Below are positions 18,491-44,159 of a DNA stretch of 64,000 nt, piece by piece. The notes below the pieces were generated by a model. It had not been told where the DNA came from and searched no databases. It saw only the letters and a program-made list of their open reading frames with translations. The stretch comes from Pseudorhodoplanes sinuspersici (GTDB lineage: Bacteria; Pseudomonadota; Alphaproteobacteria; Rhizobiales; Xanthobacteraceae): contig NZ_CP021112.1 of the NCBI RefSeq assembly GCF_002119765.1, positions 2,536,501-2,600,500 of the forward strand, read 5' to 3'. The position numbers and the translations under genes were made by a program. Each line of letters begins with the position of its first letter. Within the stretch, counting starts at the first letter, position 1.

Positions 18491-18531
18491 ATGGATTTCG
18501 AGCAACACTAATCAGATGTGAGGATCATCCA

Positions 18532-29426: not shown

Positions 29427-30181
29427 CTAACGCTCTCGAACGATGCGCTTTCCCCGTTTGATTCGTAGAGCAGGCTTGCGACTGGTCTCGGCGGAAGGAT
29501 CTTCGCCGTAGGTATCAATGCCGACCAGAAAATCGGTGCCCGCGCGGATGACGTGTTCAGCCGCCAGCGTTGCGGCGGCGCGTTCATCGCCGACAATGAT
29601 GGCGCGCAGGATCGCGGCGTGCTCGTCCCAAGCGCGGGCTTGGCGGGCGGGATCGGTAGGCGAGAACAGCATGGCGGTTCGCTGGCGCAATTTGGTCAGT
29701 AATTCGCCTAGCACCTTGTTCTGTCCCGCCGCCGCCAGTTCGTGATGGAACTGCCGATTGAGATCGGCAAGTTGGTCAAATCTCTTGGCCGCGACTGCCG
29801 CCGTTCCCTTATTCAGAACGGCCTCGATACGTTTAATGATCTGCTTGTCCTGGCGGCGCGCGGCAAGCCTGGCGTTCTGCCCTTCCAACAACGCCCGCAC
29901 CTCGACCGTCTCGCGAGCCTCCTGGTCTGTCATGGCCATGACAGTGGCCCCCGGCGCGCGGTCACTTCCACCAGCCCCTCAGATGAAAGGGCACGAATGG
30001 CCTCGCGCACGGGATTGCGAGATACGCCCATCTCTTCCGCCAGTCGTCCCTCGACCAGCCGCTCGCCCGGTTTCAACTGGCCGGACAGGATGGCAAGACG
30101 GAGCTCTTCGATGACCCGGCCATGCAAAGGCGGATGATCATCGCCCAATCGCTGCTTCGAACTTCCGTATTTGATCGGCAT
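29427..30181 (-). pseudogene. GntR family (FCD) regulator, one-base frameshift
   Basis: The first frame (ATG 30181) gives 83 residues with a GntR winged helix (LHGRVIEELRLAILSGQLKPGERL, then GVSRNPVREAIRALSSEGLVEV) and ends in TARRGPLSWP. The other frame begins at once with MTDQEARETVEVRALLEGQNARLAA and forms an FCD ligand domain to 29427 (DLNRQFHHELAAAGQNKVL). The break is at a run of five G on the coding strand (29948-29952); six would give RRGATVMAMTDQEA and a normal protein of about 251 residues. A lost base in a homopolymer can be a real mutation, a switch or a sequencing error. It is the likely regulator of the diiron-oxidase cluster to its right. Confidence 0.85.
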
Positions 30182-30281
30182 GATGTGGACCCGTAAGCAG
30201 ATTCTGCCAACGCGCATGTCCGGCTGGCGCAACTTTGACCAGAGCGCGTTTCAGCCAAAGGCGAATCTGGCGACCGGCACC

Positions 30282-30287
30282 GTATAC
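30282..30287. promoter_or_regulatory. GTATAC-centred site A
   Basis: GTATAC with flanks CACC and AGTC, 101 bases before the start of the frameshifted GntR gene. It is the weakest of five similar sites and could serve autoregulation. Confidence 0.35.
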
Positions 30288-30431
30288 AGTCTACAGTCAG
30301 CCGGGGCCACCCTTCATCCTTACGTGTGGAAATTTCTTCGTTGCTACAACGATTTGCGTGGATTTTCCGCAATTTTTGCGCCAAATCGCTCCACCTGATC
30401 CCGTATGGCGGCGGGATCAGGTGCCTTCGCC

Positions 30432-31265
30432 TTAGGACAATGCGCTGACGAGGAAGCGTGCCGACGCGATGAGCAGGAACAGGCCAAAAGCAATTTCCAG
30501 CCCACGCCGGGGTATGCGGTGTGCCAAATGCGCTCCGTAAGACGCAACGAAACCCGAGATCGGCGCCATGATTCCGAAGCCGATCAGCGAGACAAAACCA
30601 ACGGAGAAGATCGGTAGCGAGCCTTGATGCGGCAGGCCGGCCAGCATGTATCCAATGGTCCCAGCGAGAGTGATTGGAACGCCAAGCCCAGCCGATGTCG
30701 CGATCGCACTGTGGATTGACTTGCCATAGAGCGTGAGGATCACGGTTGCCATCGACCCGCCGCTGACACCCATCAGCGATGAGAGCAGACCCACAACGAA
30801 ACCATATGCAGTCATAGCCGCCCGGCCCGGAAGGTCATCGGCAATGCGCCACTTTTCATTTCCGAACAGGAGTCGCACGGCGATCAGGCATGCGATAAAC
30901 GAAAAGATTACCTTGAATATGGCTCCCGGCGCGAAGGCTGCGGCCGTCGCGCCGATAGCTACGCCCACGACGGCGGGTACGCTCCACAGCCGCATGACTC
31001 GTTCAATCACCAATCCAGAGGCCTGGTGCGCAAGATAGGAGCGTATGGTCGTCGGAACGATGATGGCGAGCGAGGTCCCGATGCACAATTGCATACGGAC
31101 GTCCTCAGGCACGTCGAGAAACCGGAATGCCTCGTAGAGTACTGGGATGATAACAGCCCCGCCGCCGATCCCGAACAAGCCGGCGAGAATCCCAGTCGCC
31201 ATGCCTGCTGCGATGATTGCGGCCGTAAGCCAAAGCAATTCCTCGAACGTAACCCCTAGTAGCAT
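30432..31265 (-). CDS. TSUP (TauE/SafE) family membrane transporter
   Basis: A 277-residue protein if the ATG at 31265 is used; a TTG at 31331 would add 22 polar residues, and the ribosome site for 31265 (AGGA directly adjacent) is poor, so the start is uncertain. It has about eight membrane helices in two repeats, with the paired GGGxx signatures of the family: GILAGLFGIGGGAVIIPVL and GLLSSLMGVSGGSMATVIL. TSUP proteins move sulfite, sulfoacetate, thiosulfate or small organic acids, often outward. It closes the operon with the oxidase and ferredoxins (133-base gap), which suggests export of a product or an anionic by-product, perhaps sulfur-containing. Confidence 0.87.
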   Translation of the reverse strand: MLLGVTFEELLWLTAAIIAAGMATGILAGLFGIGGGAVIIPVLYEAFRFLDVPEDVRMQLCIGTSLAIIVPTTIRSYLAHQASGLVIERVMRLWSVPAVVGVAIGATAAAFAPGAIFKVIFSFIACLIAVRLLFGNEKWRIADDLPGRAAMTAYGFVVGLLSSLMGVSGGSMATVILTLYGKSIHSAIATSAGLGVPITLAGTIGYMLAGLPHQGSLPIFSVGFVSLIGFGIMAPISGFVASYGAHLAHRIPRRGLEIAFGLFLLIASARFLVSALS

Positions 31266-31398
31266 TCCTGATCTCAAATTGGCGTGATGCCCCGCTACGC
31301 CAGACCGGATGGTCCGCGGGACTGCGAGCAATGGATGTCATGGTCAGAGTCGAATGATGCCGCTTGGGATTATATCGGCGTCGCCGAAGCATCTGGGC

Positions 31399-31689
31399 TC
31401 ACCAGGATACGCTCACATCGCCGTTGACGAAGGTCTGGCAGGCCATGCGATAGCCCTCCTTGATCTGCTCCTCGGTCAAGTGCTTGCGTTCCTTGGCCTT
31501 GACCGTGTCGGTATGCTCGAGACCCTTCTCGATCCTGCACTTGCAGGTGCCGCAAAGCCCGCCGCCGCATTTGAACGGGATGCCGCCTTTTTCGCGCAAA
31601 GAGACCCTGAGCAGATTGCTATTTCCGGGTGCGCTGACCAACATGCTATTGTTGGTGAGGAAGGTGATCCGGATCACGATGTTGTCCAC
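31399..31689 (-). CDS. [2Fe-2S] plant-type ferredoxin
   Basis: A 96-residue ferredoxin. The cluster loop is CGGGLCGTCKC, followed by a distant fourth Cys in YRMACQTF, the plant-type pattern. The N-terminal strand (VIRITFLTNNSMLV) and the loop GGIPFKCGGG are typical. It lies ten bases after the 101-residue gene on the same strand. One of two ferredoxins in this operon, presumably supplying electrons to the diiron oxidase at its head. Confidence 0.92.
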   Translation of the reverse strand: MDNIVIRITFLTNNSMLVSAPGNSNLLRVSLREKGGIPFKCGGGLCGTCKCRIEKGLEHTDTVKAKERKHLTEEQIKEGYRMACQTFVNGDVSVSW

Positions 31690-31698
31690 CAGGATCGG

Positions 31699-32004
31699 TC
31701 AACGTTGGATGATGGCAGCCTTGCGCAGCGCCGTTTCCATGGTGCCAAAGCTTGTCAAATGGTTCAGTTCGGTGAGCGCCTGCTCGGGACTTTCGAATTT
31801 CTCGAGAAACTTCGATGGCACGTCGTTGACGATCTCGGATTCTTCCTCGATCACCCTGATCTTGGTGTCCTTGAGCAATTCCGCGATCACGAAGTATGCT
31901 TTCTTGTGGCCGTAGAACAGATAATCATAAGCCTCGAGCGGACGCAGGCCGTCGACCAACTCGGTTCGAAACTGTCCGGGTTTACTGGTCAGAATCACGT
32001 ACAT
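31699..32004 (-). CDS. Unrecognised 101-residue protein between two ferredoxin genes
   Basis: Starts at the ATG at 32004 with GGAAGGA seven bases ahead. It is a mixed alpha/beta small protein: MYVILTSKPGQFRTEL, a strand-like YDYLFYGHKKAYFVIAEL, a charged strand TKIRVIEEESEIVND, then helices to the end. No cysteine or metal motif is seen, and I do not recognise a family. Its position between two ferredoxins and behind the diiron oxidase suggests an accessory or effector-like subunit of an oxygenase, comparable in size to the coupling proteins of multicomponent monooxygenases. That is inference from context only. It is strongly coding by ribosome site and gene spacing. Confidence 0.8.
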   Translation of the reverse strand: MYVILTSKPGQFRTELVDGLRPLEAYDYLFYGHKKAYFVIAELLKDTKIRVIEEESEIVNDVPSKFLEKFESPEQALTELNHLTSFGTMETALRKAAIIQR

Positions 32005-32068
32005 TGGAAATCCTTCCGTCCTCATTCCTCGCCAGAACACCATTGCGCATGATCGCGCACGCAAACGT

Positions 32069-32398
32069 TCACGCTGATGCGGGCGCCGCCGGCTCAAGCG
32101 GCTGCAGGTCTTGGGCGAGCTCGATGTCATGATTGAGCCAAAGCTGGCAGATCAGGCGGTAACCCTGCTCAAGCCTGACGGCGCCCAACTGCTTTTTCTC
32201 CTTCCAGTTGGGCGCAGGAAGATGTTCGCCACCTTTGAGGATACGGCATGCGCACTTGGCGCATTTCCCCATTCCACATCCGTAACGCAGGTTGGGATAG
32301 GGAAACTGCTTAATACCCGCCCTCACGACGAGGTTGGTATTGTCCTTGACCTCGTCCTGATAGACCTGACCGTCTCGGTGAAGAACAACTTTGGGCAC
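32069..32398 (-). CDS. [2Fe-2S] plant-type ferredoxin
   Basis: A 109-residue ferredoxin starting at GTG (VPKVVLHRDGQVYQDEV), four bases after the oxidase stop. The cluster loop reads YGCGMGKCAKCACRIL, with a fourth Cys in YRLICQLWL. The longer frame upstream lies inside the oxidase gene. It differs in loop sequence from the other ferredoxin of this operon (GMGK versus GGGL), so the two may have different potentials or partners. The C-terminal end is acidic and Pro/Ala rich. Confidence 0.9.
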   Translation of the reverse strand: MPKVVLHRDGQVYQDEVKDNTNLVVRAGIKQFPYPNLRYGCGMGKCAKCACRILKGGEHLPAPNWKEKKQLGAVRLEQGYRLICQLWLNHDIELAQDLQPLEPAAPASA

Positions 32399-32402
32399 CT
32401 CG

Positions 32403-33173
32403 TCACGCCTGCAGCAATTCGCGTTCGGCTTGCGGCACCTTCTTCTCAACGAGATCAAGCTCCGACAGCGGGATGTCCTTTGCCACATAATCGTAATAGA
32501 GGGCGGTGGTGTAGAGCAGCCGCATCTGGGCGCCGATCTCGCAAATCTTGAGACACCGCTGCTGCAGCTCGACCGTATTGGCGTGTTCGAGGACGATCTG
32601 ATAGCCACGCTCTCCGTGAATTTCGTCGGAGACGATGTGCAGATCGAAGAATTCGACTTCCTCATCGGTGAATTTGTACTTCTCGCGCAGCGTCGGTGTT
32701 TGCTTGCGATAGATGGAAGGGACTTGCGATTCCAGACCGACAACTAAGCCCGCTACGGCGACGATGGGGTCTTCACGCATCGCAACCGTATAGCACCAGC
32801 TCTGCAGGCCGCGAGTCGTGGCGGTCATGTTGTCCGGATCCTTGACGCGTTCCTCGGTCGTTCCGCAGGCTTTGGCAAAGCGGATGAGCAGATCGGTGTG
32901 ACGATCGCCGCCGATCTCCTCCTCGTACATATTGGCCAGCAGAAAATCTTTCGCTTCGGTATATCGATCGGGCATTCGGGCGTAGATGTATGCCAGATAC
33001 TCCGCGAACGGGCCGACATAGTGGAAGTGATTTTCGGCCCAGCGTGCGAGATGTGCGCGGCTGAGTTTGCCGCTGGCCCAAGCGATGCTGAAGGGCGCCT
33101 TGTTGGCGCTCTTGCCCTTGATGGCGTTTTCAAGGGCGCTTCGAAGTTCAACGTGATTCATCAATTTGGGCAT
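32403..33173 (-). CDS. Haem-oxygenase-like diiron oxidase (HDO; CADD/PqqC/TenA fold)
   Basis: A 256-residue all-helical enzyme. The metal ligands of the HDO family can all be placed: Glu85 and His92 (YEEEIGGDRH, seven apart), Glu148 (VGLESQV), then His179, Asp183 and His186 (DLHIVSDEIHGE, spacing H-x3-D-x2-H). This matches the CADD pattern of E, H, E, H, D, H in order and spacing. The family uses O2 for reactions such as C-C cleavage, N-oxygenation or decarboxylation. It heads a leftward operon with two ferredoxins, a 101-residue protein and a TSUP exporter. A dedicated ferredoxin chain is unusual for this family as I know it. PqqC is excluded by context and ligand set. Confidence 0.88.
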   Translation of the reverse strand: MPKLMNHVELRSALENAIKGKSANKAPFSIAWASGKLSRAHLARWAENHFHYVGPFAEYLAYIYARMPDRYTEAKDFLLANMYEEEIGGDRHTDLLIRFAKACGTTEERVKDPDNMTATTRGLQSWCYTVAMREDPIVAVAGLVVGLESQVPSIYRKQTPTLREKYKFTDEEVEFFDLHIVSDEIHGERGYQIVLEHANTVELQQRCLKICEIGAQMRLLYTTALYYDYVAKDIPLSELDLVEKKVPQAERELLQA

Positions 33174-33227
33174 TGCTGTGCTCCAGCTTGGGTTTGAAGA
33201 AAGCCTATCACGGTCTTTTTGTACATT

Positions 33228-33233
33228 GTATAC
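33228..33233. promoter_or_regulatory. GTATAC-centred site B
   Basis: ATTGTATACCGT, 55 bases before the diiron-oxidase start. One of two sites in the 173-base divergent gap. GTATAC is self-complementary, as expected for a GntR dimer. Confidence 0.5.
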
Positions 33234-33304
33234 CGTTTTATTTGATGGTCAATGCATAAAAATGAGCTTTTAGCTTACATTATTGGCTTGAATGTCGGAT
33301 GACA

Positions 33305-33310
33305 GTATAC
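33305..33310. promoter_or_regulatory. GTATAC-centred site C
   Basis: GACAGTATACAAAA, about 40 bases before the permease start. With site B it gives one palindrome in front of each divergent operon. Confidence 0.5.
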
Positions 33311-33346
33311 AAAACTTATTCCAATTAGACGTTGAGGGGGTGGCTA

Positions 33347-34891
33347 ATGGGACAACACATCACAATCACTGCCGCGCATTGGGTTTACTTGGCGGGCGTC
33401 GCGGCCATCGTGCTGACAATGATTTTACGGGCCAACGTCGTTGTGCCATCCATCGTGGCGACGTTTCTTGTTGCGCTTGCCTGGACACACAATCCGGTGA
33501 GCGCCTTTGGTAGTATCTTCAATGCGAGCTTTGTCGCGGCCAAGGAACTGTTCAATATTTTTCTGGTGATCGCTCTGGTCACAGCGCTGCTGAATGCGCT
33601 GAAGACGCTCCGCTCGGATGTCCGTATGATCGAGCCGTTCCGCGCGATCATAAAAAATGGGCATACGGCGTTCTTCGTTCTGGCGGCTGTCACCTATGTC
33701 ATATCGTTGTTCTTCTGGCCGACGCCGGCGGTGCCACTGGTGGCGGCCGTGCTGTTGCCAGCGGCGATCGTCGCCGGACTTCCGCCGCTTGCAGGCGCAA
33801 TGGCCATTGCGATTGCAGGACAGGGGATGGCCCTGTCGTCCGATTATGTGATCGGTGTTGCTCCGGGAATTAGTGCCAAGGCCGCCGGGGAAGCCATTAG
33901 TGCCGCCGCAGTAGCTGACCGTGCGCTGGTCTTGTCGCTGATCACGGGCGGCATTGCGTTGACGCTCGCCTATTTTTCCATTCGGAAGCTTATCCAGAAA
34001 CCCAGCGAATCGCTGTTGGAAAGTTGGCAGGCGCAATCGGGTAATGGCGATCTCGCGCGGTTCGAAGCTGCCGGAAGTTTTGACAAGGCGGAGATCGCGC
34101 GAGGGACAGGCTACGACGGCTCGCTGACGGATGGTGTACAGCTTTGCAAGGAACTATCGGCGGTCGAGCTGCGGCGTATTGGCTGGTCCAAACTGTTTGC
34201 CATCGCGACCCCTCTTGCTTTCGCATCCGTGATCGCGGTCATGGTGCTGCCTAAGCTGGGAACCGGTCTGCCCGACCTGAAGGGTGGCGACGCCGCGGCA
34301 TTGGTTGGGGGAATGGCGGCGATCTTGATGATCTGCGCGACATTCGCCGCCGATGGCCCATGGAGGTCGCTTGAGGTTGCTGCCGAGCATGTGACGGCCG
34401 GTTTCGTCTTTGCCTTTAGGGCTATGGGTTCGGTCCTGCCGATTGCGGGCTTTTTCTTCACGGGTGCCGGTGGTGATCTCGCCGCCTCCATTCTCAATGT
34501 ACCAACCGGTCAAGCCCCGTCACTGCTGTTCGATCTTGTTCAGTCCGGGCAAGCGTTGATCCCCAACAATCATGTCTTTGTCGCCTTCGGCGTCCTGATC
34601 GTCGGTATGGTGACCGGCATTGACGGGTCCGGATTTTCCGGGCTGCCGCTCACCGGGGCGCTTTCAGGTGCGTTAGGGCCGACCGTCGGGTTCAACATTA
34701 CGACCTTGTGCGCCATCGGCCAGATGGGCGCGATCTGGACCGGCGGCGGCACGCTCATGGCGTGGTCGTCCCTCATCGCGGTTGCAGGCTTTGCACGCGT
34801 GCCGGTGCTCGATGCAGTCCGGGCGCTGACGCTGCCGGTATTGGCGGGCCTTGTCGTATCGACGGTCTGCGCTGTGCTCTTCTGGAATTAA
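33347..34891 (+). CDS. Putative multi-pass permease (carboxylate/ion transporter type)
   Basis: A 514-residue membrane protein from the ATG at 33347, with GAGGGGG ahead. About twelve hydrophobic segments are visible, including VLTMILRANVVVPSIVATFLVALAW, FFVLAAVTYVISLFFWP and GGGTLMAWSSLIAVAGF. Two repeated re-entrant-like stretches (PTPAVPLVAAVLLPAAIVAG and GSGFSGLPLTGALSGALGP) resemble the ion-transporter superfamily that includes dicarboxylate and gluconate carriers. A hydrophilic loop of about 90 residues splits the halves. I cannot name the substrate. It is the first gene of the rightward operon with the dehydrogenase, HbpS-like protein, reductase and gamma-glutamyltransferase-like enzyme. 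Confidence 0.75.
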   Translation: MGQHITITAAHWVYLAGVAAIVLTMILRANVVVPSIVATFLVALAWTHNPVSAFGSIFNASFVAAKELFNIFLVIALVTALLNALKTLRSDVRMIEPFRAIIKNGHTAFFVLAAVTYVISLFFWPTPAVPLVAAVLLPAAIVAGLPPLAGAMAIAIAGQGMALSSDYVIGVAPGISAKAAGEAISAAAVADRALVLSLITGGIALTLAYFSIRKLIQKPSESLLESWQAQSGNGDLARFEAAGSFDKAEIARGTGYDGSLTDGVQLCKELSAVELRRIGWSKLFAIATPLAFASVIAVMVLPKLGTGLPDLKGGDAAALVGGMAAILMICATFAADGPWRSLEVAAEHVTAGFVFAFRAMGSVLPIAGFFFTGAGGDLAASILNVPTGQAPSLLFDLVQSGQALIPNNHVFVAFGVLIVGMVTGIDGSGFSGLPLTGALSGALGPTVGFNITTLCAIGQMGAIWTGGGTLMAWSSLIAVAGFARVPVLDAVRALTLPVLAGLVVSTVCAVLFWN

Positions 34892-34908
34892 GGAAAGGCG
34901 ATAACCTT

Positions 34909-36408
34909 ATGGCCGAAGCTTCGATATCGATGAAGCGTGCTGCTGAACAACGCACGCAGACGATTGAAGAATACCACAACTATATCGACGGGAAATGGAT
35001 TGCGAGCCGGAGCGGTTCGCAATTCGACGACATCAATCCCGCAGATACGTCCGACGTCGTCGGCCGTTTCCCGGCCTCTTCGGCCGCTGACGCCGAAGCG
35101 GCCGTCCTCGCGGCTTCGCTCGCCTTTAACGACTGGAAGAAGACGTCGATTTCGGCACGCGCCAAAGTCCTCAATCGCGCTGCCGATTATCTCGAAAACC
35201 ATGTCGATCAGTTTGCAGAGGAATTAACCCGCGAGGAAGGCAAGGCCCTCAATCTGAGCAAAGACGAGATTCTGCGTTCGGCGCAGACATTGCGCTTCTA
35301 TGCGGTGGAGGGGCAATCCTTCACCGGTGAGACCTTTCCGAACGACGATTCCGATATGGTGGTCTATTCGCAGCGAGAGCCGCTGGGAGTCGTCACGGTG
35401 ATTACGCCGTGGAACTTTCCTGTGTCCATCCCGGCGCGCAAAATCGCTCCTGCTCTCATCGCGGGCAACACTGTGGTTTTCAAGCCGTCTTCGGATGCGC
35501 CATTGAGTGGCTATCGTCTCATGGAAGCGTTCGTCGCCGCCGGAATTCCCAAGGGCGTGCTCAATTTCATTACAGGCTCGGCGGCAGAAGTCGGTCCTGC
35601 CATCACCGAGCCGGCTGTCATTCGCGCGGTGTCATTCACGGGCTCGACGGCGGCCGGAGAGAAAATTCACCGCTCGGTCGCTTTCACCACACGCACACAG
35701 ATGGAACTCGGCGGGAAGAATCCGCTGATCGTGATGGAGGATGCCGATCTCGACAAGGCGGTGGACCTGACGATCAAGGGCGGACTGTCGTTGAGCGGCC
35801 AGGCGTGTACCGGCACCAGCCGTGTTCTGGCCATGAAACAGGTCAAAGAAGAATTCACGGCGAAACTCGTTGCCAAGGTCAAGTCTCTTAAGATCGGGTG
35901 TGGCCTCGTTGCTGGCATGGATATCGGTCCGCTCGCGACTGCGAGGCAACTGGAAACTGTGCTGCGCTATGTCGAGATTGGTAAACGTGAGGCGACCTTG
36001 CTGTGCGGTGGCGAGCGCCTTACCGGCCCTGCTTACGATCGCGGCTATTACCTGTCGCCAGCCATTTTCACCGATGTGACGCAGGATATGCGGATCGCTC
36101 GCGAGGAAATTTTCGGTCCGGTGATCGCGATTATCGAGGTTACGAGCTATGCCGATGCGATCACGAAAGCCAACGATAGCGAATATGGTCTCTCGGCTGC
36201 GATTGCGACGCGCAATCCGCGCTACATGCACGACTTTGCACGGGACATTGAATCGGGAACGGTGAAGATCAATCGCACGACCACCGGCAATCTGATCAAT
36301 GCGCCATTTGGCGGTCTCAAGCGGTCGAGCACATCCACATTTCGCGAATCCGGGCGAACGGGCCTGGAATTCTACACCCAGATCAAAACCGTCTATCGCG
36401 GTTGTTGA
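34909..36408 (+). CDS. NAD(P)-dependent aldehyde dehydrogenase
   Basis: A 499-residue aldehyde dehydrogenase with the full catalytic set: Asn169 (TPWNFP), Lys192 (VVFKPSS), Glu266 (MELGGKNP) and Cys300 (SGQACTGTSR). The GQAC-TGTSR context and overall length resemble alpha-ketoglutaric semialdehyde and related semialdehyde dehydrogenases. AAGGAAAGG precedes the ATG, 18 bases after the permease. It oxidises an aldehyde to an acid, presumably the aldehyde formed by the oxidase or by the gamma-glutamyltransferase-like route of this cluster. The exact substrate is not readable from sequence. Confidence 0.92.
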   Translation: MAEASISMKRAAEQRTQTIEEYHNYIDGKWIASRSGSQFDDINPADTSDVVGRFPASSAADAEAAVLAASLAFNDWKKTSISARAKVLNRAADYLENHVDQFAEELTREEGKALNLSKDEILRSAQTLRFYAVEGQSFTGETFPNDDSDMVVYSQREPLGVVTVITPWNFPVSIPARKIAPALIAGNTVVFKPSSDAPLSGYRLMEAFVAAGIPKGVLNFITGSAAEVGPAITEPAVIRAVSFTGSTAAGEKIHRSVAFTTRTQMELGGKNPLIVMEDADLDKAVDLTIKGGLSLSGQACTGTSRVLAMKQVKEEFTAKLVAKVKSLKIGCGLVAGMDIGPLATARQLETVLRYVEIGKREATLLCGGERLTGPAYDRGYYLSPAIFTDVTQDMRIAREEIFGPVIAIIEVTSYADAITKANDSEYGLSAAIATRNPRYMHDFARDIESGTVKINRTTTGNLINAPFGGLKRSSTSTFRESGRTGLEFYTQIKTVYRGC

Positions 36409-36489
36409 TGCCAAACACGCTGCAGCGTCCGTTCCTTCCGGATTTCTGCGGCTGGCTATCTGTCTCTAATCCAACCCAGGAAAGACCTT

Positions 36490-36969
36490 ATGAGAAATTC
36501 GTTTAAGCTGGAACTGAAGGAAGCCCGTCATATGGTTGCGGCGGCACTTCGGAAATCGGCAGAGATCGGCGTGCTGGAGACGGTATGCATCGTGGACGAG
36601 GGCGGCTACCCTCTGGCGCTCGAGCGCATGGATGGCGCGCGTATCACCGGACCGCAGATTGCCTGGAACAAGGCCTTCACCGCCGCTGGCCACAAGCGTT
36701 CAACCCATCTGTTCAATCAGATGCCCAATGGACCGGCGCTGCCCGGCAACGAAGCCTTCGGCATTCAGTGGAGCTTTGAGGGCAAGTTCGCCGTATTCGT
36801 TGGTGGCTATCCTATTGTCGTGGATGACGAAGTGATCGGTGGTGTTGGTCTGAGTGGCGGCAATGGTGAGCAAGACACGCTGTGCGGCGTCGCCGCTCTT
36901 CAGGCGCTGCACGAGTTGCTGGCGCCGGAAAAACGCCGTGTTCTGGTCCAAGCCGACATCAAGAAGTGA
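36490..36969 (+). CDS. GlcG/HbpS family protein
   Basis: A 159-residue protein of the HbpS/GlcG (DUF336) fold: LKEARHMVAAALRKSAEIGV, VDEGGYPLALERMDGA, KAFTAAGHKRST, and the late GGVGLSGGNGEQDTLCGVAAL. Members bind haem, corrinoid or small ligands, and many occur beside oxidoreductase operons without a known reaction. A good CAGGAAAG site lies ahead. It sits between the dehydrogenase and the flavin reductase and is probably part of the same transcript. Confidence 0.87.
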   Translation: MRNSFKLELKEARHMVAAALRKSAEIGVLETVCIVDEGGYPLALERMDGARITGPQIAWNKAFTAAGHKRSTHLFNQMPNGPALPGNEAFGIQWSFEGKFAVFVGGYPIVVDDEVIGGVGLSGGNGEQDTLCGVAALQALHELLAPEKRRVLVQADIKK

Positions 36970-36983
36970 CGCGCGGAGGTCTC

Positions 36984-37997
36984 ATGTCCTACCGGGTGCA
37001 AGTGTTGCAAACGCAGGAAATGTTCGCCGTAAATCCCGATGAGTCGATCCTCGCTGCGGCCCAGCGGGCCAATGTGAATCTGGCGCATGACTGCACGCTG
37101 GGCGGTTGCGGGACCTGCCGCATCAAGTTGATCGAAGGCCGTGTCATCTACAACGAGCCTCCCTTCGCCTTGACGCCGGAGGAGGAGAGCGAGGGCTATG
37201 CGCTTGCCTGCCAGGCGATGCCGACGAGCGATCTCGTCATCAGCGCCGCAGCGCTTGCCGATGTGGTCGTGGAGCCGGCGCGTCACACGGCGATCATCAG
37301 CGACATACAACAGCTCGGTACCGATGTGAGCCGTCTGGTGCTTGAAATACCAGAAAACGATGTGCTGACCTATTTGCCGGGACAATACATGAATGTGTTG
37401 CTTCCGGACGGAAGCACACGCAGCTTCTCGATGGCTTCCGCCCCGAAAGACACGTTTGTTGACTTCCACGTGCGCAGGATCGATGGAGGCGCGTTCACCG
37501 AAGGGAAGCTGCCGTATATGCGTGCCGGCGACCGCCTCGACGTGGAGTTTCCACACGGTACTTTCGTTTTCCATGCGCGAGACGATCGGCCGCTTCTTAT
37601 GGTGGCGACAGGAACCGGGCTCGCGCCGATCAAGGCGATCTTGGAAGCGCTCATGGACAATCCCGACTGTCCGCCTGTCAGCCTCTATTGGGGCGCGCGC
37701 AGCGCCTCCGATCTTTATCTGCATGACGAGATTCAGGCATGGGGTGAGCGGCTCTATGAATTTCGTTATGTTCCGGTGCTGTCGCGGCCGGATAGATCCT
37801 GGCAAGGGTGTCGCGGTTACGTGCAGGACGCGGTGGCGGGTGATCTCGACGATCTGTCGGACTATGCCATTTATCTTTGCGGATCGCCCGCGATGATCTT
37901 TGACGCCAAGCAAACTTTCATCACGCGAGGTGCGGCCATCGATCATATCTACACGGAAGGATTCACCTTCCAGCATGCACAATCGGCGGCCGCGTGA
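36984..37997 (+). CDS. Ferredoxin-fused NAD(P)H:acceptor reductase
   Basis: A 337-residue electron-transfer flavoprotein of the BenC/DmpP type. Residues 1-95 form a plant-type [2Fe-2S] domain (CTLGGCGTCRIKL and a fourth Cys in ALACQAMP). A FAD domain follows with GQYMNVLLPDGSTRSFSMAS, and an NAD(P)H domain with VATGTGLAPIKAIL and YLCGSPAMI. This protein would take electrons from NADH and hand them to an oxygenase or to free ferredoxins. The partner most likely is the diiron oxidase and its two ferredoxins in the divergent operon, because no other oxygenase lies in this block. ATG 36984 has GGAGG well placed. Confidence 0.92.
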   Translation: MSYRVQVLQTQEMFAVNPDESILAAAQRANVNLAHDCTLGGCGTCRIKLIEGRVIYNEPPFALTPEEESEGYALACQAMPTSDLVISAAALADVVVEPARHTAIISDIQQLGTDVSRLVLEIPENDVLTYLPGQYMNVLLPDGSTRSFSMASAPKDTFVDFHVRRIDGGAFTEGKLPYMRAGDRLDVEFPHGTFVFHARDDRPLLMVATGTGLAPIKAILEALMDNPDCPPVSLYWGARSASDLYLHDEIQAWGERLYEFRYVPVLSRPDRSWQGCRGYVQDAVAGDLDDLSDYAIYLCGSPAMIFDAKQTFITRGAAIDHIYTEGFTFQHAQSAAA

Positions 37998-38048
37998 TTG
38001 ACGCAAGGCGTTGCTTTTTCGGCGCGCCTTTCAACGAAATGACCTCTG

Positions 38049-39866
38049 ATGAAGATCGCGCAGATTCCCAAGATCAACCCTGATACCTTCACGACGCGAC
38101 CCGAAATCGAGGGCACGTTCGGCGTGGTCGCCTCGACACACTGGATTGCCACCGCGGTCGGCATGGCCATCCTTGAGAAAGGCGGCAATGCATTCGACGC
38201 CGGTGTCGCCACCGCCTTCACGCTGCAGGTTGTGGAGCCGCATCTCAATGGGCCAGGCGGGGATGTTCCGATCCTTGTCCACGACGTCAGACGCGGCAAG
38301 ACCGAAGTCATCTGCGGCCAGGGACCGGCGCCGGCGAGGGCGACGATTGCTCATTATCGTGCCCAGGGGCTCGACATCGTGCCAGGCACAGGTCTGCTCG
38401 CCGCCTGTGTGCCCGGAACGTTTGACGCCTGGATGTTGCTGTTGCGTGACTACGGCACTTTATCGCTTGCGGATGTGCTGTCGCCGGCGATCGCCTATGC
38501 GCAAAATGGTCATCCATTGCTTGAGCGCGCCAATGCGACCATTGCGACCGTCGCCGATCTGTTCCGGACCTACTGGCCGACTTCAGCGGCGGTCTATCTG
38601 CCGGGAGGAAATGTACCGACGACCGGATCGCTGTTCGCCAACCCGGCCCTTGCCGGAACCTACACGCGTATTCTCCAGGAGGCGGAGAAAGCGGGAGGTG
38701 ATCGCATTGCGCAGATCGAGCGTGCACGCAGAGTATGGTCGCAGGGCTTTGTCGCCGAAGCGGTCGACCGGTTTTTCCGCACCCAGTCTGTGATGGATGT
38801 GTCCGGTTCGCCGCATCGTGGCGTCCTGACTGGCGAGGATATGGCGCGCTGGCAGGCACATGTCGAAGCGCCACTGACCTACGATTATCACGGCTACACT
38901 GTCTGTAAGGCCGGCCCCTGGAGCCAGGGGCCAGTGATGCTGCAGCAACTTGCATTGCTCAAGGGCTTTGATCTCACCGGTCTCGACCCCGTCGGGCCCG
39001 ATTTCATTCACTTACAGATTGAATGCGCCAAACTGGCTTATGCGGACCGGGAAAAATTCTATGGCGATCCCGCCTTTGTCGACGTGCCGATGCAGACGTT
39101 GTTGTCTGACGCTTACAATGACGAGCGGCGCCGCCTCGTCGGAGAGAACGCGTCGCTGGAATTGCGGCCTGGCTCGGTCGAAGGATTCGGCGCCGTACTG
39201 GCGCTGCGCCGTGAGGAGGGACAACGCAGCGCCGTTGGAGCCCTGGGTTCGGGCGAGCCGACGGTCGGCCGCCTGGGCGAAGTTCGCGGGGATACGGTGC
39301 ATTTCGATATCGTCGATCATGCGGGCAACATGGTCGCGGCGACCCCTTCGGGAGGCTGGCTACAGTCTTCTCCGGTCATTCCGGAGTTGGGCTTTGGGAT
39401 GGGGACACGCGCGCAGATGTTCTGGCTCGAAGACAATCATCCCGCTTCGCTTGCGCCCGGCAAGCGGCCGCGCACGACATTGTCGCCGACCATCGCGTTG
39501 CGCGGCGGCAAGCCTTATCTCGCTTGGGGCTCGCCGGGCGGTGACCAGCAGGATCAATGGATTGCGCAGTATTTTCTGCGGCATGTCCACGCCGGAATGA
39601 ATCTGCAGGAGGCGATGGATGCGCCGGCCTGGCACTCCGAGCACTTTCCGATCTCATTCTGGCCGCGCACGGCACGGCCAGGCGTACTGGTGATCGAGAG
39701 CCGCGTGCCGGATGCCACGATCAAGGAATTGCGCAAGCGAGGTCACGAGGTCGAGATTGGACCGGCCTGGTCGGAAGGCCGGCTGACCGCCGCTGCGCGC
39801 GTCGATCCGTTTCGCCGCGCGGCCGCCAATCCACGCGGAATGCAGGGCTATGCGGCGGGCCGCTAG
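38049..39866 (+). CDS. Gamma-glutamyltransferase-like Ntn hydrolase
   Basis: A 605-residue member of the gamma-glutamyltransferase family. The self-cleavage and nucleophile site is GDTVHF, with Thr416 as the new N-terminus; GGNAFDAGVATAF and FWLEDNHPASLAPGKRPRTTLSP are family typical. There is no signal peptide, so it should act in the cytoplasm. In true enzymes an Arg in an RExAP motif holds the glutamyl alpha-carboxylate; here the region reads CGQGPAPA, without it. This fits the YwrD/acylase-like branch rather than glutathione hydrolysis. Its stop codon lies inside a palindromic repeat. The substrate is probably an acyl-amide intermediate of the cluster. Confidence 0.87.
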   Translation: MKIAQIPKINPDTFTTRPEIEGTFGVVASTHWIATAVGMAILEKGGNAFDAGVATAFTLQVVEPHLNGPGGDVPILVHDVRRGKTEVICGQGPAPARATIAHYRAQGLDIVPGTGLLAACVPGTFDAWMLLLRDYGTLSLADVLSPAIAYAQNGHPLLERANATIATVADLFRTYWPTSAAVYLPGGNVPTTGSLFANPALAGTYTRILQEAEKAGGDRIAQIERARRVWSQGFVAEAVDRFFRTQSVMDVSGSPHRGVLTGEDMARWQAHVEAPLTYDYHGYTVCKAGPWSQGPVMLQQLALLKGFDLTGLDPVGPDFIHLQIECAKLAYADREKFYGDPAFVDVPMQTLLSDAYNDERRRLVGENASLELRPGSVEGFGAVLALRREEGQRSAVGALGSGEPTVGRLGEVRGDTVHFDIVDHAGNMVAATPSGGWLQSSPVIPELGFGMGTRAQMFWLEDNHPASLAPGKRPRTTLSPTIALRGGKPYLAWGSPGGDQQDQWIAQYFLRHVHAGMNLQEAMDAPAWHSEHFPISFWPRTARPGVLVIESRVPDATIKELRKRGHEVEIGPAWSEGRLTAAARVDPFRRAAANPRGMQGYAAGR

Positions 39867-39941
39867 TGAAGCGGATTTGACATTCGCTACCCACCTGGCC
39901 GCAGGCTCGCCAAGCGAATGTCAAACCCAAAGCTCCACTAG
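39863..39941. repeat. Palindromic repeat element 1
   Basis: A 79-base dyad bounded by CTAGTG and CACTAG, with a perfect 13-bp inner stem TTTGACATTCGCT / AGCGAATGTCAAA. The gamma-glutamyltransferase stop TAG is within the left end. Element 2 follows 13 bases on with a related core. Confidence 0.75.
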
Positions 39942-39954
39942 AATCTAATACTTG

Positions 39955-40030
39955 CTAGTGGTCCTTTGCTTCTAACATTCGCAAAAGAGCCTGCCGAGAA
40001 GGGATGCGAATGTTAGAGTCGGACCACCAG
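39955..40030. repeat. Palindromic repeat element 2
   Basis: A 76-base dyad beginning CTAGTGGTCC and closing GGACCACC, with a perfect inner stem TCTAACATTCGCA / TGCGAATGTTAGA. It shares ACATTCGC in the stem and the CTAGTG boundary with element 1. Confidence 0.75.
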
Positions 40031-40102
40031 ACCATAGCATCGGAAACGCCAAGCGACTTTAGGGCGAGGTCGTGCCCGGGTGGCATTGGAAGCGACGCGC
40101 TT

Positions 40103-40133: not shown

Positions 40134-40162
40134 CGCGGTCCAGCAATGATATTGCCATCGGA

Positions 40163-41026
40163 TCAGTCGGCAGAGCGGGGTGACCCGCTGCGCCGAAGCA
40201 CGATCGTCTCAAGCGCCTGAATGGCGATGAACAGCACGGATGAGATGGCAGCCAAGATAACGATCGAGGTCATGACAAGATTCATCTGGAAGATCTGGCT
40301 TCCATAGGTAATGAGATAACCGAGCCCGGCTTTCGCCGCCTGAAACTCCCCAACGACCACGCCCACCAATGCGAGCCCGACATTGACTTTGAGAGTCGAA
40401 ATCATGCTCGGCACACTGGCTGGAAGCACGATCTTACGAAGGATCTGCCATTTCGATGCACCGAACAATTGAACCAGCTTGATCTTGTCCGGATCAATGG
40501 CGTTGAAACCGGTATAGAGCATGATGATGGTGACAAAAACGCTCACAGCGATGGCCATGGCGTAGATGGAAGCCACGTCGCCAAGCCAGATATAGAAAAT
40601 CGGCACCAGCGCGATTTTCGGCATGGCATTGAGCACGACGATGAACGGGTCGAGCACACGGTGAAGGAACGGTGAGGACCACAGCGCCACGGCGCAGACC
40701 AAACCAATTACCATCCCGCCACTGAATCCGATCACGGTTTCGCTGAAGGTCGTCCATGTATGGAGCACGAGGCTTCCGTCCTGCAACATGACCATGAGCG
40801 TTTTCGCGACGGCAGACGGATAGCTCGTCAGCATCGGATTGATCCACCCAGCGCGCGGGGCGATCTCCCATACAATAAGAAAAAACATGATCAGCCCGAT
40901 TTGCCATGCCTGGATGGTGAGCGCCCGACGGCGCAGACCACGTAGATATGCCTCATAGGCCGCGCTTGGCGCGGCAGAAACCGGCGCAGTCGATGCGGCA
41001 GGTGCCGTCATTGCTTCAGTCGTCAT
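40163..41026 (-). CDS. SsuC/TauC-type ABC transporter permease
   Basis: A 287-residue inner-membrane protein with six hydrophobic segments after a 35-residue polar lead. The EAA-type loop for the ATPase is FGASKWQILRKIVLPASVPSMISTLKVNVGLALVGVVVGEF, as in sulfonate, taurine, nitrate and pyrimidine-precursor importers. It begins ten bases after the ATPase gene stops. The ligand of this importer is set by the binding protein two genes up. The repeated palindromes lie just past its 3' end. Confidence 0.92.
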   Translation of the reverse strand: MTTEAMTAPAASTAPVSAAPSAAYEAYLRGLRRRALTIQAWQIGLIMFFLIVWEIAPRAGWINPMLTSYPSAVAKTLMVMLQDGSLVLHTWTTFSETVIGFSGGMVIGLVCAVALWSSPFLHRVLDPFIVVLNAMPKIALVPIFYIWLGDVASIYAMAIAVSVFVTIIMLYTGFNAIDPDKIKLVQLFGASKWQILRKIVLPASVPSMISTLKVNVGLALVGVVVGEFQAAKAGLGYLITYGSQIFQMNLVMTSIVILAAISSVLFIAIQALETIVLRRSGSPRSAD

Positions 41027-41035
41027 GCGGCGCTC

Positions 41036-41848
41036 CTATTGCATGTGATGGGCGTCAAGTTCGTCCCATATCGTCTGGAAATACATGCCAAATTCTTGGC
41101 ACTTGCGCGCTTGGAAGGGCGTTGGACGACTTGGCCCGAAGCTCGGATAGGCCACATCATGAATTGATTTGATGCGACCGGGGCGTCGGCTCATGACGAT
41201 GACTCGATCGGCCATGCTGATGGCTTCGCCGATGTCATGCGTTACGAGGACCACGGTTTTCCTTTCATTGGCCAGAATTGCGGCGATCTCATCCGAAAGC
41301 GCGAGCCGCGTCTGGTAGTCGAGGGCGGAGAACGGTTCGTCGAGCAGCAGCAGTTCGGGATCTGGACACAGCGTTCGTGCGAGAGCCGCGCGCTGACGCA
41401 TGCCGCCTGAAAGTTGACCTGGGAGACTGTGCATGAACTCACCAAGGCCATAGCGGGTTAGCAGATCTTCTGCACGGCCGCGCGACGCTTGCCGATCAAG
41501 ACCCAGGAGTTCCGGGCCCAACAAAACGTTGTCGAGCACGGTCCGCCATTCGAGCAGCGTGTCCTTTTGGAACATGTAGCCGGCGCGGGGAGAGGGCGCG
41601 GTAACCTCTTTGCCGTTGATTTGAATGACGCCACGTGACGGCCGCATGAGTCCGGAGATGAGCGAGAGCAACGTGCTCTTGCCGCATCCCGATGACCCAA
41701 CAATTGCGACGAATTCCCCCTGTGCGATGTCCAGCGATATATTGGAAAGGGCGAGCGTTTCGCGCTCGGGCGAGAAGTAGTTGAGTGTGACGTCGCGGAT
41801 CGTCACGGCGGGGAGCGCTGTCCCCGCCGGCTGAGATGTTTCGATCAT
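41036..41848 (-). CDS. SsuB/TauB-type ABC transporter ATPase
   Basis: A 270-residue ATPase with Walker A GSSGCGKST, Q-loop in MFQKDTLLEWRTVLDNV, signature LSGGMRQRAALARTL, Walker B LLLLDEPFSALD and H-loop VTHDIGEA. The MFQKD.LL.W stretch is typical of the nitrate/sulfonate/taurine class. It follows the binding protein by seven bases and precedes the permease, an ordinary importer operon. Confidence 0.93.
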   Translation of the reverse strand: MIETSQPAGTALPAVTIRDVTLNYFSPERETLALSNISLDIAQGEFVAIVGSSGCGKSTLLSLISGLMRPSRGVIQINGKEVTAPSPRAGYMFQKDTLLEWRTVLDNVLLGPELLGLDRQASRGRAEDLLTRYGLGEFMHSLPGQLSGGMRQRAALARTLCPDPELLLLDEPFSALDYQTRLALSDEIAAILANERKTVVLVTHDIGEAISMADRVIVMSRRPGRIKSIHDVAYPSFGPSRPTPFQARKCQEFGMYFQTIWDELDAHHMQ

Positions 41849-41855
41849 AAGGACC

Positions 41856-42872
41856 TCATTTGCTAGCGCTCTTTTTTTCGGCCGCGCCGGAAAATGTGGT
41901 GGTGACGATTTTCTCGTAAGGGACTTTCTTGTCGGCCGGCAGGACGCCGCCCATGATCATGATTTCCTGCGCCTTGGCCAGGCCGCCCTCATCGACAGAC
42001 GTGCTGGAGGCCCAGATCGGCACCCCGGCACTCCGATATCGGCTTACGACCGCGATGTTGTCATCCAGGCTGAGCCCAGGAAAATAGGGCGCGATGGCTT
42101 CGGCGATATCCTTTTCGCTCGCGGTTGCGACCCAAGCCTGCGCCTTTGCGATCGCGTTCGTCCATTTTTGTGCAGCCGCCGGGTTCTTTTCAATCCAGCT
42201 GCGCTTCGCAAAGAACACCGTATAGTCCGCTCTCCCGACTTCCTTCCCGATGGAAGTGATCATGTGCGCCTGACCGGCCTTCTCCAGCTTGCTGAGGTTC
42301 GGCTCCATGAAGATGCCAAAATCCCCGGTGCCCGAAATCCATGCTCCGTCGCGCGCCGGAATACCGATATTCGTCACGACATTGCCGATGGTTGCGGCAT
42401 CGACGCCGTGCTGCTTCAGCGTATAGTTGAGGTAGAGGCCAGGGGTGCTGCCAGGCCGCCAGCCAATGATCTTCTTGCCGTTGAGCATCGACCAATCGAA
42501 TTTGTCGAGCTTTGTGCGTGACGCCAGGAAGAACCCGTCGGTCGCCGTGAGCGCGCAAAAGATAAGCGGCTTGTCAGTGGATTCGCTGTTGTAGATGTAG
42601 ATCGGTACTTCCGGGCCGGCGAGTCCAAAATCGGCCTGGCCGGACAGAATCAAAGCGCCGGCACGGTCGCCGCCATTGGCCGTCACGAGTTCGATGTCGA
42701 GTCCTTCCGCTGCGGCAAAGCCTTTCGACAGGGCGACATACATCGGAATGTAGAGCTGCGATCGTATGACCTCGGCGAGCTTGATTTTGATGCGCTCCGC
42801 CGCAACGGCTTGCCAACTGAATGCGGTGATGAAGAATGCTGCACCGAGCAATCGGATGATGCGATAGACCAT
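41856..42872 (-). CDS. SsuA/NMT1-type ABC transporter binding protein
   Basis: A 338-residue exported protein. The ATG at 42872 has AAGGGA ahead and leads into a signal peptide (LLGAAFFITAFSWQAVAAE). The mature part begins RIKIKLAEVIRSQLYIPMYVALSKGFAAAEGLDIELVTANGGDRA and has GQADFGLAGPEVPIYI, as in NMT1/SsuA proteins. These bind sulfonates, taurine, pyrimidine precursors or aromatic anions. With a TSUP exporter in the neighbouring operon, an organosulfur substrate is possible, though not shown. A GTATAC site lies 46 bases upstream, as for the oxidase operon, which argues that the two are controlled together. Confidence 0.92.
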   Translation of the reverse strand: MVYRIIRLLGAAFFITAFSWQAVAAERIKIKLAEVIRSQLYIPMYVALSKGFAAAEGLDIELVTANGGDRAGALILSGQADFGLAGPEVPIYIYNSESTDKPLIFCALTATDGFFLASRTKLDKFDWSMLNGKKIIGWRPGSTPGLYLNYTLKQHGVDAATIGNVVTNIGIPARDGAWISGTGDFGIFMEPNLSKLEKAGQAHMITSIGKEVGRADYTVFFAKRSWIEKNPAAAQKWTNAIAKAQAWVATASEKDIAEAIAPYFPGLSLDDNIAVVSRYRSAGVPIWASSTSVDEGGLAKAQEIMIMGGVLPADKKVPYEKIVTTTFSGAAEKKSASK

Positions 42873-42917
42873 ATCGTTGTCCCTTCCCCCTCTGAATCGA
42901 CGCATGCATTGAATATT

Positions 42918-42923
42918 GTATAC
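42918..42923. promoter_or_regulatory. GTATAC-centred site D
   Basis: TATTGTATACTAAG, 46 bases before the ABC binding-protein start, at nearly the same distance as site B from the oxidase. Confidence 0.5.
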
Positions 42924-43208
42924 TAAGATTGGTCAACGCCTGCTGAGGCTCTCGCCGTCGAAAACGTTGGGCTCTCTCATTCAATTTCGATGCCAACGCG
43001 CCCGTCTGCTGCAGTGCAGCGTGTTTCCAAAAGCGGGTTTGGAAATCGCAGAAAATTGCCAATTTTCGGGTATTTTTGGTGATGGAGCAGTTCCGTCGGC
43101 CTGCTTCCTTTGCACAAAGATGATGCAATTTCGCGATGATTTTTGATGCTGATTTCCAGGCGAAACTTGCGTAACGTGAGAGTGTCTTCGATACGATTTT
43201 TGTATTTA

Positions 43209-43214
43209 GTATAC
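43209..43214. promoter_or_regulatory. GTATAC-centred site E
   Basis: TTTAGTATACCGAA, 247 bases before the cysteine-hydrolase start and about 340 before the binding protein. Far from both, so its target is unclear. Confidence 0.4.
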
Positions 43215-43460
43215 CGAAATTCGGCTGTACGCTTTGGATGGGGACGGGAAAGGTGCATCGCAGACCTCAAGCTCGGATCGGCCGCGGCCATGCTACGGGA
43301 TGTTTGAGCTATTTATCAAATCGGGTGTTTTGCTCACAGGTTGTAAGTTCTCCTGACCAGAATCGATGCAATCGCCGTACGTTTCATCAAGAGGGCGACG
43401 CGCCAGAGGACCAAATCAGGTTAACGCTGAACATCACTTCTTAAAATGGAGAAGAGGCCG

Positions 43461-44159
43461 ATGCACAAATTGTCGATGCCGCCTGAACTGATAGAGCGTG
43501 TGACGAAACGGGCCGGGCGGCCGCATCCTTTCGATGTTATCGATCCGGCAAAGACGGCGTTCGTCGTCATCGATATGCAAAACTATTTTATGAAGCCGGG
43601 TTTTATGGGGGAGGTGCCTGAGGCGCGAGAGATTGTGCCGAACGTGAACCGCATGGCTGCGGCGCTGCGCACCCGAGGCGGGCATGTGGTGTGGGTCAAA
43701 AACGCCACCAACGGCACCCGCGAAAACTGGAGCGTAATGCACGATTGTCTCATGACGCCGCAAAATCGCGATCTGCGCTACGCGACCATGGACGTTGCGC
43801 ATGAGGGGCACAGCCTGTGGCCAGAGCTTGAGGTGCGGCCGGAAGACAGTCAGATCGCCAAAAGCCGTTTCAGTGCCTTCATTGAGGGATCATCGAATAT
43901 CGTGTCGTGCTTGCGGCAGAGCGGCATCGATACGCTACTTATAGGTGGGACTGCGACCAATATCTGCTGCGAAAGCTCGGCGCGTGACGCGATGATGCTA
44001 AATTTCAAGGTGACGATGGTTGCCGATGCGCTCGCGACCTATAGCGATGCCGAGCATAACGCCTCTCTGGCGACCTTTTATTCGATCTTCGGCGATGTGC
44101 AGACGGTCGATGAAGCCATCGCTTCTCTCGATCGCGGAAGAAGCATGGCGGCGGCCTGA
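43461..44159 (+). CDS. Isochorismatase-family cysteine hydrolase
   Basis: A 232-residue enzyme from the ATG at 43461 (GGAG nine bases ahead); an ATG 15 bases earlier lacks a ribosome site. The catalytic set is Asp in FVVIDMQNYF, Lys in QIAKSRFSAFI, and Cys in TNICCESSARDAM. Such enzymes hydrolyse amides, ureido acids or isochorismate. It is longer than NicF and differs around the active site. It stands after the importer, divergent from it, at the edge of the GTATAC region, and may act on an amide of the imported compound. Confidence 0.88.
   Translation: MHKLSMPPELIERVTKRAGRPHPFDVIDPAKTAFVVIDMQNYFMKPGFMGEVPEAREIVPNVNRMAAALRTRGGHVVWVKNATNGTRENWSVMHDCLMTPQNRDLRYATMDVAHEGHSLWPELEVRPEDSQIAKSRFSAFIEGSSNIVSCLRQSGIDTLLIGGTATNICCESSARDAMMLNFKVTMVADALATYSDAEHNASLATFYSIFGDVQTVDEAIASLDRGRSMAAA

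Follow-up and report, generated by a model that had tools for sequence, protein, structure and literature searches.

A haem-oxygenase-like diiron oxidase encoded with two [2Fe-2S] ferredoxins and a 101-residue protein: a candidate multicomponent oxygenase of proteobacteria

How does a haem-oxygenase-like diiron oxidase/oxygenase (HDO) receive its electrons in the cell, and can such an enzyme serve in catabolism? The HDO superfamily of oxidases is growing; about a dozen of its members have been validated, most of them in biosynthesis, and to our knowledge their cellular reductants are largely not established. The question is raised by a locus of Pseudorhodoplanes sinuspersici, whose genome is a single contig of 5.97 Mb and of which we analysed a 64 kb stretch (the window, positions 2536501-2600500). 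Here an HDO gene is followed by genes for two plant-type [2Fe-2S] ferredoxins, Fd2 and Fd1, and for a 101-residue protein, p101, that lies between them (Table 1). Together with their accompanying genes, they form what we call the module. We read it, with a probability of about 0.7, as a catabolic multicomponent oxygenase in which the HDO is the terminal component.

Linkage of the oxidase to two ferredoxins and p101

To follow the locus across genomes, we scanned with the HDO alone and kept the best 80 of 296 relatives as loci (82-92% identity), a set of best matches outside which more divergent members lie. Five further loci (L086-L090) were found in plasmid records via p101, bringing the total to 85; having been retrieved through p101 matches, they are not independent for p101. 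The original prediction had called for a neighbourhood check of the HDO with ferredoxins and the 101-residue family, and this came out in its favour, which also answers its own refuting condition of operons that fail to co-occur in other genomes: 79 of the 80 HDO-retrieved loci hold Fd2, p101 and Fd1 (the triad), and in the exception, L054, merely 538 bases of contig precede the HDO and the contig end cuts the locus. The triad is present in 84/85 loci overall and in 69/69 of those with full flanks (18 kb or more; the HDO scan supplied 64 of them and plasmids 5). Many loci come from congeners, and the counts are to be read as species rather than as independent events.

The three triad genes are contiguous and co-directional in all 84 measurable loci, and their placement relative to the HDO takes five forms: directly downstream (50 loci), divergent and apart (24), divergent and adjacent (8), and two others seen once each. 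Because the linkage persists through such rearrangement, it argues for a functional tie between the HDO and the triad, more than chance. As a control we examined 40 of the 56 listed PF14518 matches other than the window's own, with 4 kb on each side where the contig allowed. Neither a plant-type ferredoxin nor p101 was found in any of these 40 regions, several of which come from one genome and some of which are weak PF14518 matches; the control detects plant-type ferredoxins only, and one region, L170, has a Rieske protein. Where a module locus has the full 4 kb on both sides (71 loci), at least one plant-type ferredoxin domain is always present; 59 loci have at least two, and the 12 with a single ferredoxin-domain frame at this distance are all from Cupriavidus, with the triad apart from the HDO. 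A separate [2Fe-2S] ferredoxin component thus accompanies the oxygenase gene, as in multicomponent oxygenases.

Two variations on the triad were also seen. Two genomes (that of L035, and G293 with L004 and L005) each carry the HDO in duplicate, at spacings of about 4 and 9 kb, with the triad beside one copy. L031 offers an apparent natural fusion of electron carrier and pathway hydrolase: at 7705-9033 a single frame spans Fd1 and an alpha/beta hydrolase, the latter clustering with its BD-FAE-type counterpart in L087.

The HDO itself has the length of 256 residues and the E-H-E-H-D-H ligand set with CADD-like spacing that had been read from the sequence. E85, H92, E148, H179, D183 and H186 align with the residues that we take to be the metal ligands of CADD (CT610); they are invariant across 16 module homologues and kept in 27/27 HDOs of a wider tree. 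The 3H/3C motif of HDOs is set out in the accessible text of a 2026 review (PMC13108848). The best NCBIfam model is TIGR04305, the CADD family (94.2 bits, below its cut-off of 200); the PqqC model TIGR02111 gives 48.2 bits, below its cut-off of 240. The AF2 model of the HDO is of modest confidence (pLDDT 77, with a low stretch at 148-150 that includes the ligand E148); in a Foldseek search it matches PqqC, CtCADD (target TM 0.82), UndA, FlcD and HrmI, consistent with the seven-helix haem-oxygenase fold. The terminal protein belongs to PF14518 and is not a ferritin-like hydroxylase subunit.

p101 has no match in Pfam or NCBIfam, and comparison with PDB sequences (phmmer and profile) gave chance-level matches only. 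A p101 profile run over 274 genomes found two matches, one in a module genome and one weak (E=0.006), and p101 was not found in phage records. The protein lacks an invariant Cys or His, and binding of a cluster or metal is therefore unlikely; its conserved residues include G10, E15, Y28, G32, A36, N60 and P63. Its AF2 model (pLDDT 93.9, pTM 0.84) has seven strands and one helix and finds nothing in the PDB at E<=0.001 by Foldseek (best E=0.26; TM <=0.34 among the 50 matches listed), so that the modelled fold would be absent from the PDB, one Foldseek search being no proof of a new fold. We propose that p101 is an effector or scaffold.

The locus, its operator-like sites and its relatives

In the window the minus strand reads HDO, Fd2, p101, Fd1, a TSUP transporter and then a GntR-type regulator gene, with gaps of 4 nt between HDO and Fd2, 64 nt between Fd2 and p101 and 9 nt between p101 and Fd1. 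Divergent from the HDO, on the plus strand, are genes for a permease, an aldehyde dehydrogenase, an HbpS-like protein, a BenC-like reductase and a gamma-glutamyltransferase (GGT)-family protein. Every gene named by the original prediction was thus recovered, from the two distinct ferredoxins, the 101-residue orphan and the TSUP exporter on one side to the five divergent genes on the other. The window also supplies a linked NAD(P)H reductase with FAD and [2Fe-2S] domains, a further feature of multicomponent oxygenases. The most likely starts are ATG at 31265 for the TSUP gene and 33347 for the permease.

The module looks to extend over 29427-44159, beyond the unit first described, because the importer and the isochorismatase-family gene share a GTATAC core and co-occur beside the module in five other loci (L065, L071-L073 and L075; four Variovorax and one Candidimonas). 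The GntR gene is split into two overlapping frames (29427-30232) and forms a single frame in the relative L022; the split looks like a sequencing error or a broken regulator. The permease, which has no match in Pfam or NCBIfam, represents an uncharacterised transporter family with homologues in 61/69 full-flank loci. Bradyrhizobium species are among the closest named relatives at this locus.

Table 1. Features of the module in the window (coordinates are window positions)
Feature	Position	Strand	Family evidence
HDO, haem-oxygenase-like diiron oxidase/oxygenase, 256 aa	32403..33173	-	PF14518 E=3.2e-35
Fd2, plant-type [2Fe-2S] ferredoxin, 109 aa, GTG start	32069..32398	-	Fer2 E=1.8e-6
p101, 101 aa, between both ferredoxins	31699..32004	-	no Pfam/NCBIfam match
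Fd1, plant-type [2Fe-2S] ferredoxin, 96 aa, GTG start	31399..31689	-	Fer2 E=8.8e-13
TSUP-family (TauE/SafE) anion transporter	30432..31265	-	PF01925 E=4.4e-39
GntR/FadR-type regulator gene, apparent frameshift near 29935	29427..30181	-	two overlapping frames
GTATAC operator core, upstream of GntR gene	30282..30287	.	
Two GTATAC operator cores, divergent HDO/permease promoter	33228-33233 and 33305-33310	.	
Multi-spanning permease	33347..34891	+	family without Pfam match
Aldehyde dehydrogenase, nearest alpha-ketoglutaric semialdehyde dehydrogenases	34909..36408	+	PF00171; NF042993 562 bits (cut-off 770, not reached)
HbpS-like (DUF336) protein	36490..36969	+	PF03928 E=6.5e-33
BenC-like NAD(P)H reductase, [2Fe-2S], FAD and NAD domains	36984..37997	+	Fer2, FAD_binding_6, NAD_binding_1; PDB relatives 5ogx, 1krh
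Gamma-glutamyltransferase (GGT)-family hydrolase	38049..39866	+	PF01019 E=4.3e-116
NMT1/Ssu-like ABC importer: permease, ATPase, binding protein	40163..42905	-	
Two GTATAC operator cores (42918, 43209), between importer and hydrolase	42918..43214	.	
Isochorismatase-family (RutB/biuret-hydrolase-like) amidohydrolase	43446..44159	+	PF00857 E=3.1e-37; RutB 78 bits (cut-off 378, not reached)

Across the 69 full-flank loci, the most constant companions are HbpS (68), GntR (67), aldehyde dehydrogenase (63), the permease (61) and the reductase (45), followed by TSUP and the ornithine-cyclodeaminase family (OCD), with 35 each, and amidase (19). GGT (7), isochorismatase and SsuA-like proteins (5 each), the BD-FAE hydrolase (4) and aspartate dehydrogenase (1) are rarer; the aspartate-dehydrogenase gene, in L022, scores above the cut-off of NF009825. 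The near-universal HbpS-like partner belongs to the same HbpS/DUF336 family as EfgA, the PduO C-terminal domain, HbpS and NahX, and the window's protein matches the four closest solved members with 58-82 bits (phmmer). In L087 and L090 the module is carried by Caballeronia plasmids and lies close to genes for ISNCY transposases and Rieske dioxygenases, a setting that suggests mobility of the module.

The HDO is preceded by a GTATAC core in 79/85 loci (3.3 in shuffled sequence) and the permease in 72/74 (3.4 shuffled), against 11/85 in a coding control; the two counts overlap, as both genes often share one divergent promoter. All five GTATAC sites of the 64 kb window are at module promoters, a striking placement, and the number itself compares with a chance expectation of about 2 and was reached in 4/100 shuffles. 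The longer pattern AYWGTATACNR occurs 15 times in the 6 Mb genome, 4 times in the module and in some cases as one site counted on both strands, and genome-wide enrichment was not found (15 matches vs 21 for the reversed control). Among six other genomic stretches with the site, five hold a GntR-type gene of their own by eye and one, L245, does not. Given the lack of genome-wide enrichment and the sites beside other GntR-type genes, the core is probably a general GntR-family signature that is not specific to the module's regulator, and the argument from GTATAC for the module rests on the position of the sites.

Module HDO loci come from alpha- and betaproteobacteria, and their hosts include the soil bacteria Bradyrhizobium, Cupriavidus, Achromobacter, Variovorax and Paraburkholderia. 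The HDO is a discrete, scattered family: in 200 genomes of one family its matches are bimodal (36 at E<1e-150, the next at 5e-12), and in the window's order it occurs in 4 of 397 genomes drawn, the window genome included.

Outside the module, the nearest relative of the HDO, L170 (44% identity), still has HbpS and GntR in its locus, with a Rieske protein encoded divergently. In L197, an HDO-HbpS-GntR set is divergent from genes for a Rieske protein and for a 285-aa protein that has no Pfam match (7419-9262), possibly a sister system with another [2Fe-2S] partner. More distant relatives have 33-35% identity. L218 has UbiD, Asp/Glu-racemase and DOPA-dioxygenase genes nearby (Pfam); L223 and L224 show racemase-like and SDR genes by eye and no visible UbiD, with two isochorismatase-like genes, also by eye, in L224; L220 has UbiD (Pfam) and an adrenodoxin-type ferredoxin recognised by motif only, without a Pfam match; and L221 and L222 combine several HDO paralogues with Mo-hydroxylase genes, and in L222 an isochorismatase (Pfam for L222 only). 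The CADD-like relative L198 has none of these degradative neighbours. In all, six of nine such stretches have UbiD, Asp/Glu racemase, DOPA dioxygenase, Mo-hydroxylase or isochorismatase genes near the HDO, and the surroundings of the outside relatives are mostly degradative. Near L219, an HDO of the wider clade, hydantoinase/5-oxoprolinase-like genes are visible by eye.

Elsewhere in the window, positions 10981-21095 hold what looks like a nicotinate-type cluster, whose genes are presumably NicC, NicE, NicD, NicX and NicF-like; three of four genes tested match Pfam FAD_binding_3, Amdase and Isochorismatase, and the frame at 18532-19578 has no Pfam match. A short frame at 28949-29353 appears by eye to be a fragment of an arginase-family gene, and just beyond the module (44791-47268) is a nitrite/sulfite-reductase-like protein with NIR_SIR, BFD and Pyr_redox domains.

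The proposed reaction and its alternatives

If the module is a catabolic multicomponent oxygenase, electrons would pass from NADH to the BenC-like reductase, or to a housekeeping reductase where none is linked, and both [2Fe-2S] ferredoxins would relay them to the diferric HDO. Once diferrous, the HDO would activate O2 on a bound small carboxylate, and p101, as a redox-inactive effector or scaffold, may hold the ferredoxins to the HDO or gate it. The oxidised product would be handled by the HbpS-like protein and further oxidised by the aldehyde dehydrogenase, with amide nitrogen freed by an amidohydrolase whose family differs between genomes (isochorismatase, GGT, amidase or BD-FAE). Uptake would be through the permease or the NMT1-type ABC importer, and the GntR regulator may control the module genes from the GTATAC sites. 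The genetic side of the original prediction of a multicomponent oxygenase with a terminal HDO is supported by the linkage of HDO, ferredoxin pair and p101 (79/80) and the frequency of aldehyde dehydrogenase (63/69) and reductase (45/69), whereas we infer the electron transfer and the product, along with the role of p101 and the regulation.

Several observations weigh against this assignment. In 24 loci the triad is on the opposite strand and over 0.9 kb away from the HDO, and for that reason could serve another enzyme; a GTATAC core precedes the triad operon in 9 of the 34 cases in which it does not follow the HDO (shuffled 0.6). Relative to the window copies, p101 (38-78% identity), Fd2 (57-84%) and Fd1 (63-82%) vary more than the HDO (82-92%), which is unexpected for tightly fitted partners. 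Of the 69 full-flank loci, 24 show no linked reductase and 6 no aldehyde dehydrogenase within the locus, and the window's own GntR gene looks broken. That the HDO is active, binds metal and receives electrons is a prediction from the genes. Precedent points the same way: HDOs studied so far need no protein effector, according to the accessible part of the 2026 review (PMC13108848), and the partner of the HDO MboA is, in the accessible text, one reductase (PMC13185094).

Among the alternatives, the one that survives best is that the triad maintains the cofactor, loading or re-reducing a labile diiron site in the HDO rather than serving each turnover, as is described for YfaE and class I ribonucleotide reductase. 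Fd1 and the reductase match the YfaE model weakly (24.5 and 43 bits, cut-off 75), and HDO cofactors are described as labile in what is accessible of the review (PMC13108848). Yet two ferredoxins and p101 in every uncut locus, with a linked reductase in 45/69, seem more than such upkeep would call for, and the 40 other PF14518 regions have no such ferredoxins; we regard maintenance as rather unlikely.

What, then, is the substrate? Our guess is that it is most likely a nitrogen-containing aromatic or heterocyclic acid. The UbiD, Mo-hydroxylase and amidohydrolase neighbours favour such an acid over a sulfonate, and the recurrent amide hydrolases, together with OCD or aspartate dehydrogenase, suggest that amide nitrogen is released and an imino acid reduced. 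We would guess that imino acid, aldehyde and amide could together come from a pyridine- or pyrrole-2-carboxylate.

The importer and TSUP exporter had earlier been taken as a hint of an organosulfur or amino-sulfonate substrate. On that account the HDO would hydroxylate the carbon that bears the sulfonate, the aldehyde going to the dehydrogenase and sulfite to TSUP, with import by the Ssu-like ABC system. TSUP is indeed present in 35/69 full-flank loci, the SsuABC-like importer adjoins the same GTATAC core, and a sulfite-oxidase-like neighbour occurs in 9/85 loci (eight Achromobacter and one Cupriavidus plasmid). However, the SsuA-like binding protein scores 37.8 bits against an SsuA cut-off of 163.5, neither the amide hydrolases nor the genes for OCD or aspartate dehydrogenase would be explained, and the relatives are located in aromatic-type clusters; NMT1-like binding proteins have a wide range of uses. 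The SsuA score, the frequency of TSUP and the sulfite-oxidase neighbours thus speak only weakly for a sulfonate oxygenase, which we consider very unlikely.

It is also highly improbable that the module is part of a reported pathway, such as that for homarine (N-methylpicolinate; Nat Microbiol 2026). By reasoning, an imino acid, an aldehyde and amide nitrogen could all arise from pyridine-2-carboxylates, fitting OCD, aldehyde dehydrogenase and amidohydrolase. The accessible text of a paper that cites the homarine work ties homarine to an N-methylglutamate dehydrogenase operon (PMC13390433), genes that were not recognised in the listed neighbourhoods, where no dedicated search for them was made. 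Among 289 genomes drawn from the window's class, moreover, an HDO of >46% identity was found in the window genome only, and among the papers listed in a literature search on dipicolinate, picolinate and homarine degradation, no gene cluster matching the module was noted.

Finally, CADD/CT610 and 4-aminobenzoate synthases are the closest solved relatives of the HDO by sequence, with the same six ligands and spacing, and we know of no redox-partner genes for CADD or NePabS. The two sacrificial residues of CADD, Tyr27 and Lys152 (the amine donor), identified in the accessible texts of PMC11965152 and PMC13108848, are also where the module HDO differs, with Ser29 and Gln158 in their place, both invariant in the 16 homologues. 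A self-sacrificing p-aminobenzoate synthase of the CADD type with incidental neighbours was dropped on account of these replacements and has next to no likelihood, the TIGR04305 score being less than half of the cut-off. With the ligands kept, a CADD-like fold and the sacrificial residues replaced, the HDO should therefore, as judged from its sequence, be a true enzyme and not a p-aminobenzoate synthase.

Known redox partners and what the module means

The nearest precedent is MboA/MboB, the mangotoxin HDO acetylenase and its partner. MboA requires the FAD/[2Fe-2S] reductase MboB for its second oxidation, MboB cannot be replaced by reductants or mediators, and the authors call the two possibly the first dedicated HDO-redox partner pair, all according to the accessible text (PMC13185094). 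Like the module, this pair joins an HDO to a dedicated NAD(P)H/FAD/[2Fe-2S] reductase; unlike it, the pair has one reductase, with no separate ferredoxins or p101-like protein described in that text, and serves biosynthetic peptide desaturation rather than catabolism. The earlier statement that known HDOs act without such a chain is corrected by the dependence of MboA on MboB (PMC13185094).

In their overall plan, the closest counterparts have other folds. In toluene/methane monooxygenases and ferredoxin-using Rieske systems, a reductase and a [2Fe-2S] protein feed a nonheme iron oxygenase, and the toluene/methane monooxygenase type also has a small redox-inactive effector. Their terminal components are ferritin-like diiron or Rieske/mononuclear proteins, whereas that of the module has the haem-oxygenase-like fold, and the module differs further in its two ferredoxins and in p101, which has no solved counterpart at Foldseek E<=0.001. 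Neither p101 nor an HDO with separate ferredoxins was found described in the literature searched, which largely left aside subscription papers and preprints and is no proof; the module is real and conserved, and apparently undescribed.

We put forward tentatively, and at less than even odds, that the module represents the first of a new class of multicomponent oxygenases, alongside the Rieske, ferritin-like diiron and P450 systems, in which an HDO fed by two distinct [2Fe-2S] ferredoxins, held together by an effector p101 of a fold not in the PDB, would open an uncharacterised pathway for N-(hetero)aromatic acids. If so, the relatives near a Rieske protein (L170 and L197) or an adrenodoxin-type ferredoxin (L220, by motif) would reflect repeated recruitment of [2Fe-2S] partners by HDOs. 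Because this HDO is accompanied by dedicated ferredoxins, a candidate effector and, in many loci, a reductase, the physiological delivery of electrons to an HDO and its gating become directly testable, and the module suggests that common soil bacteria use HDOs as catabolic oxygenases.

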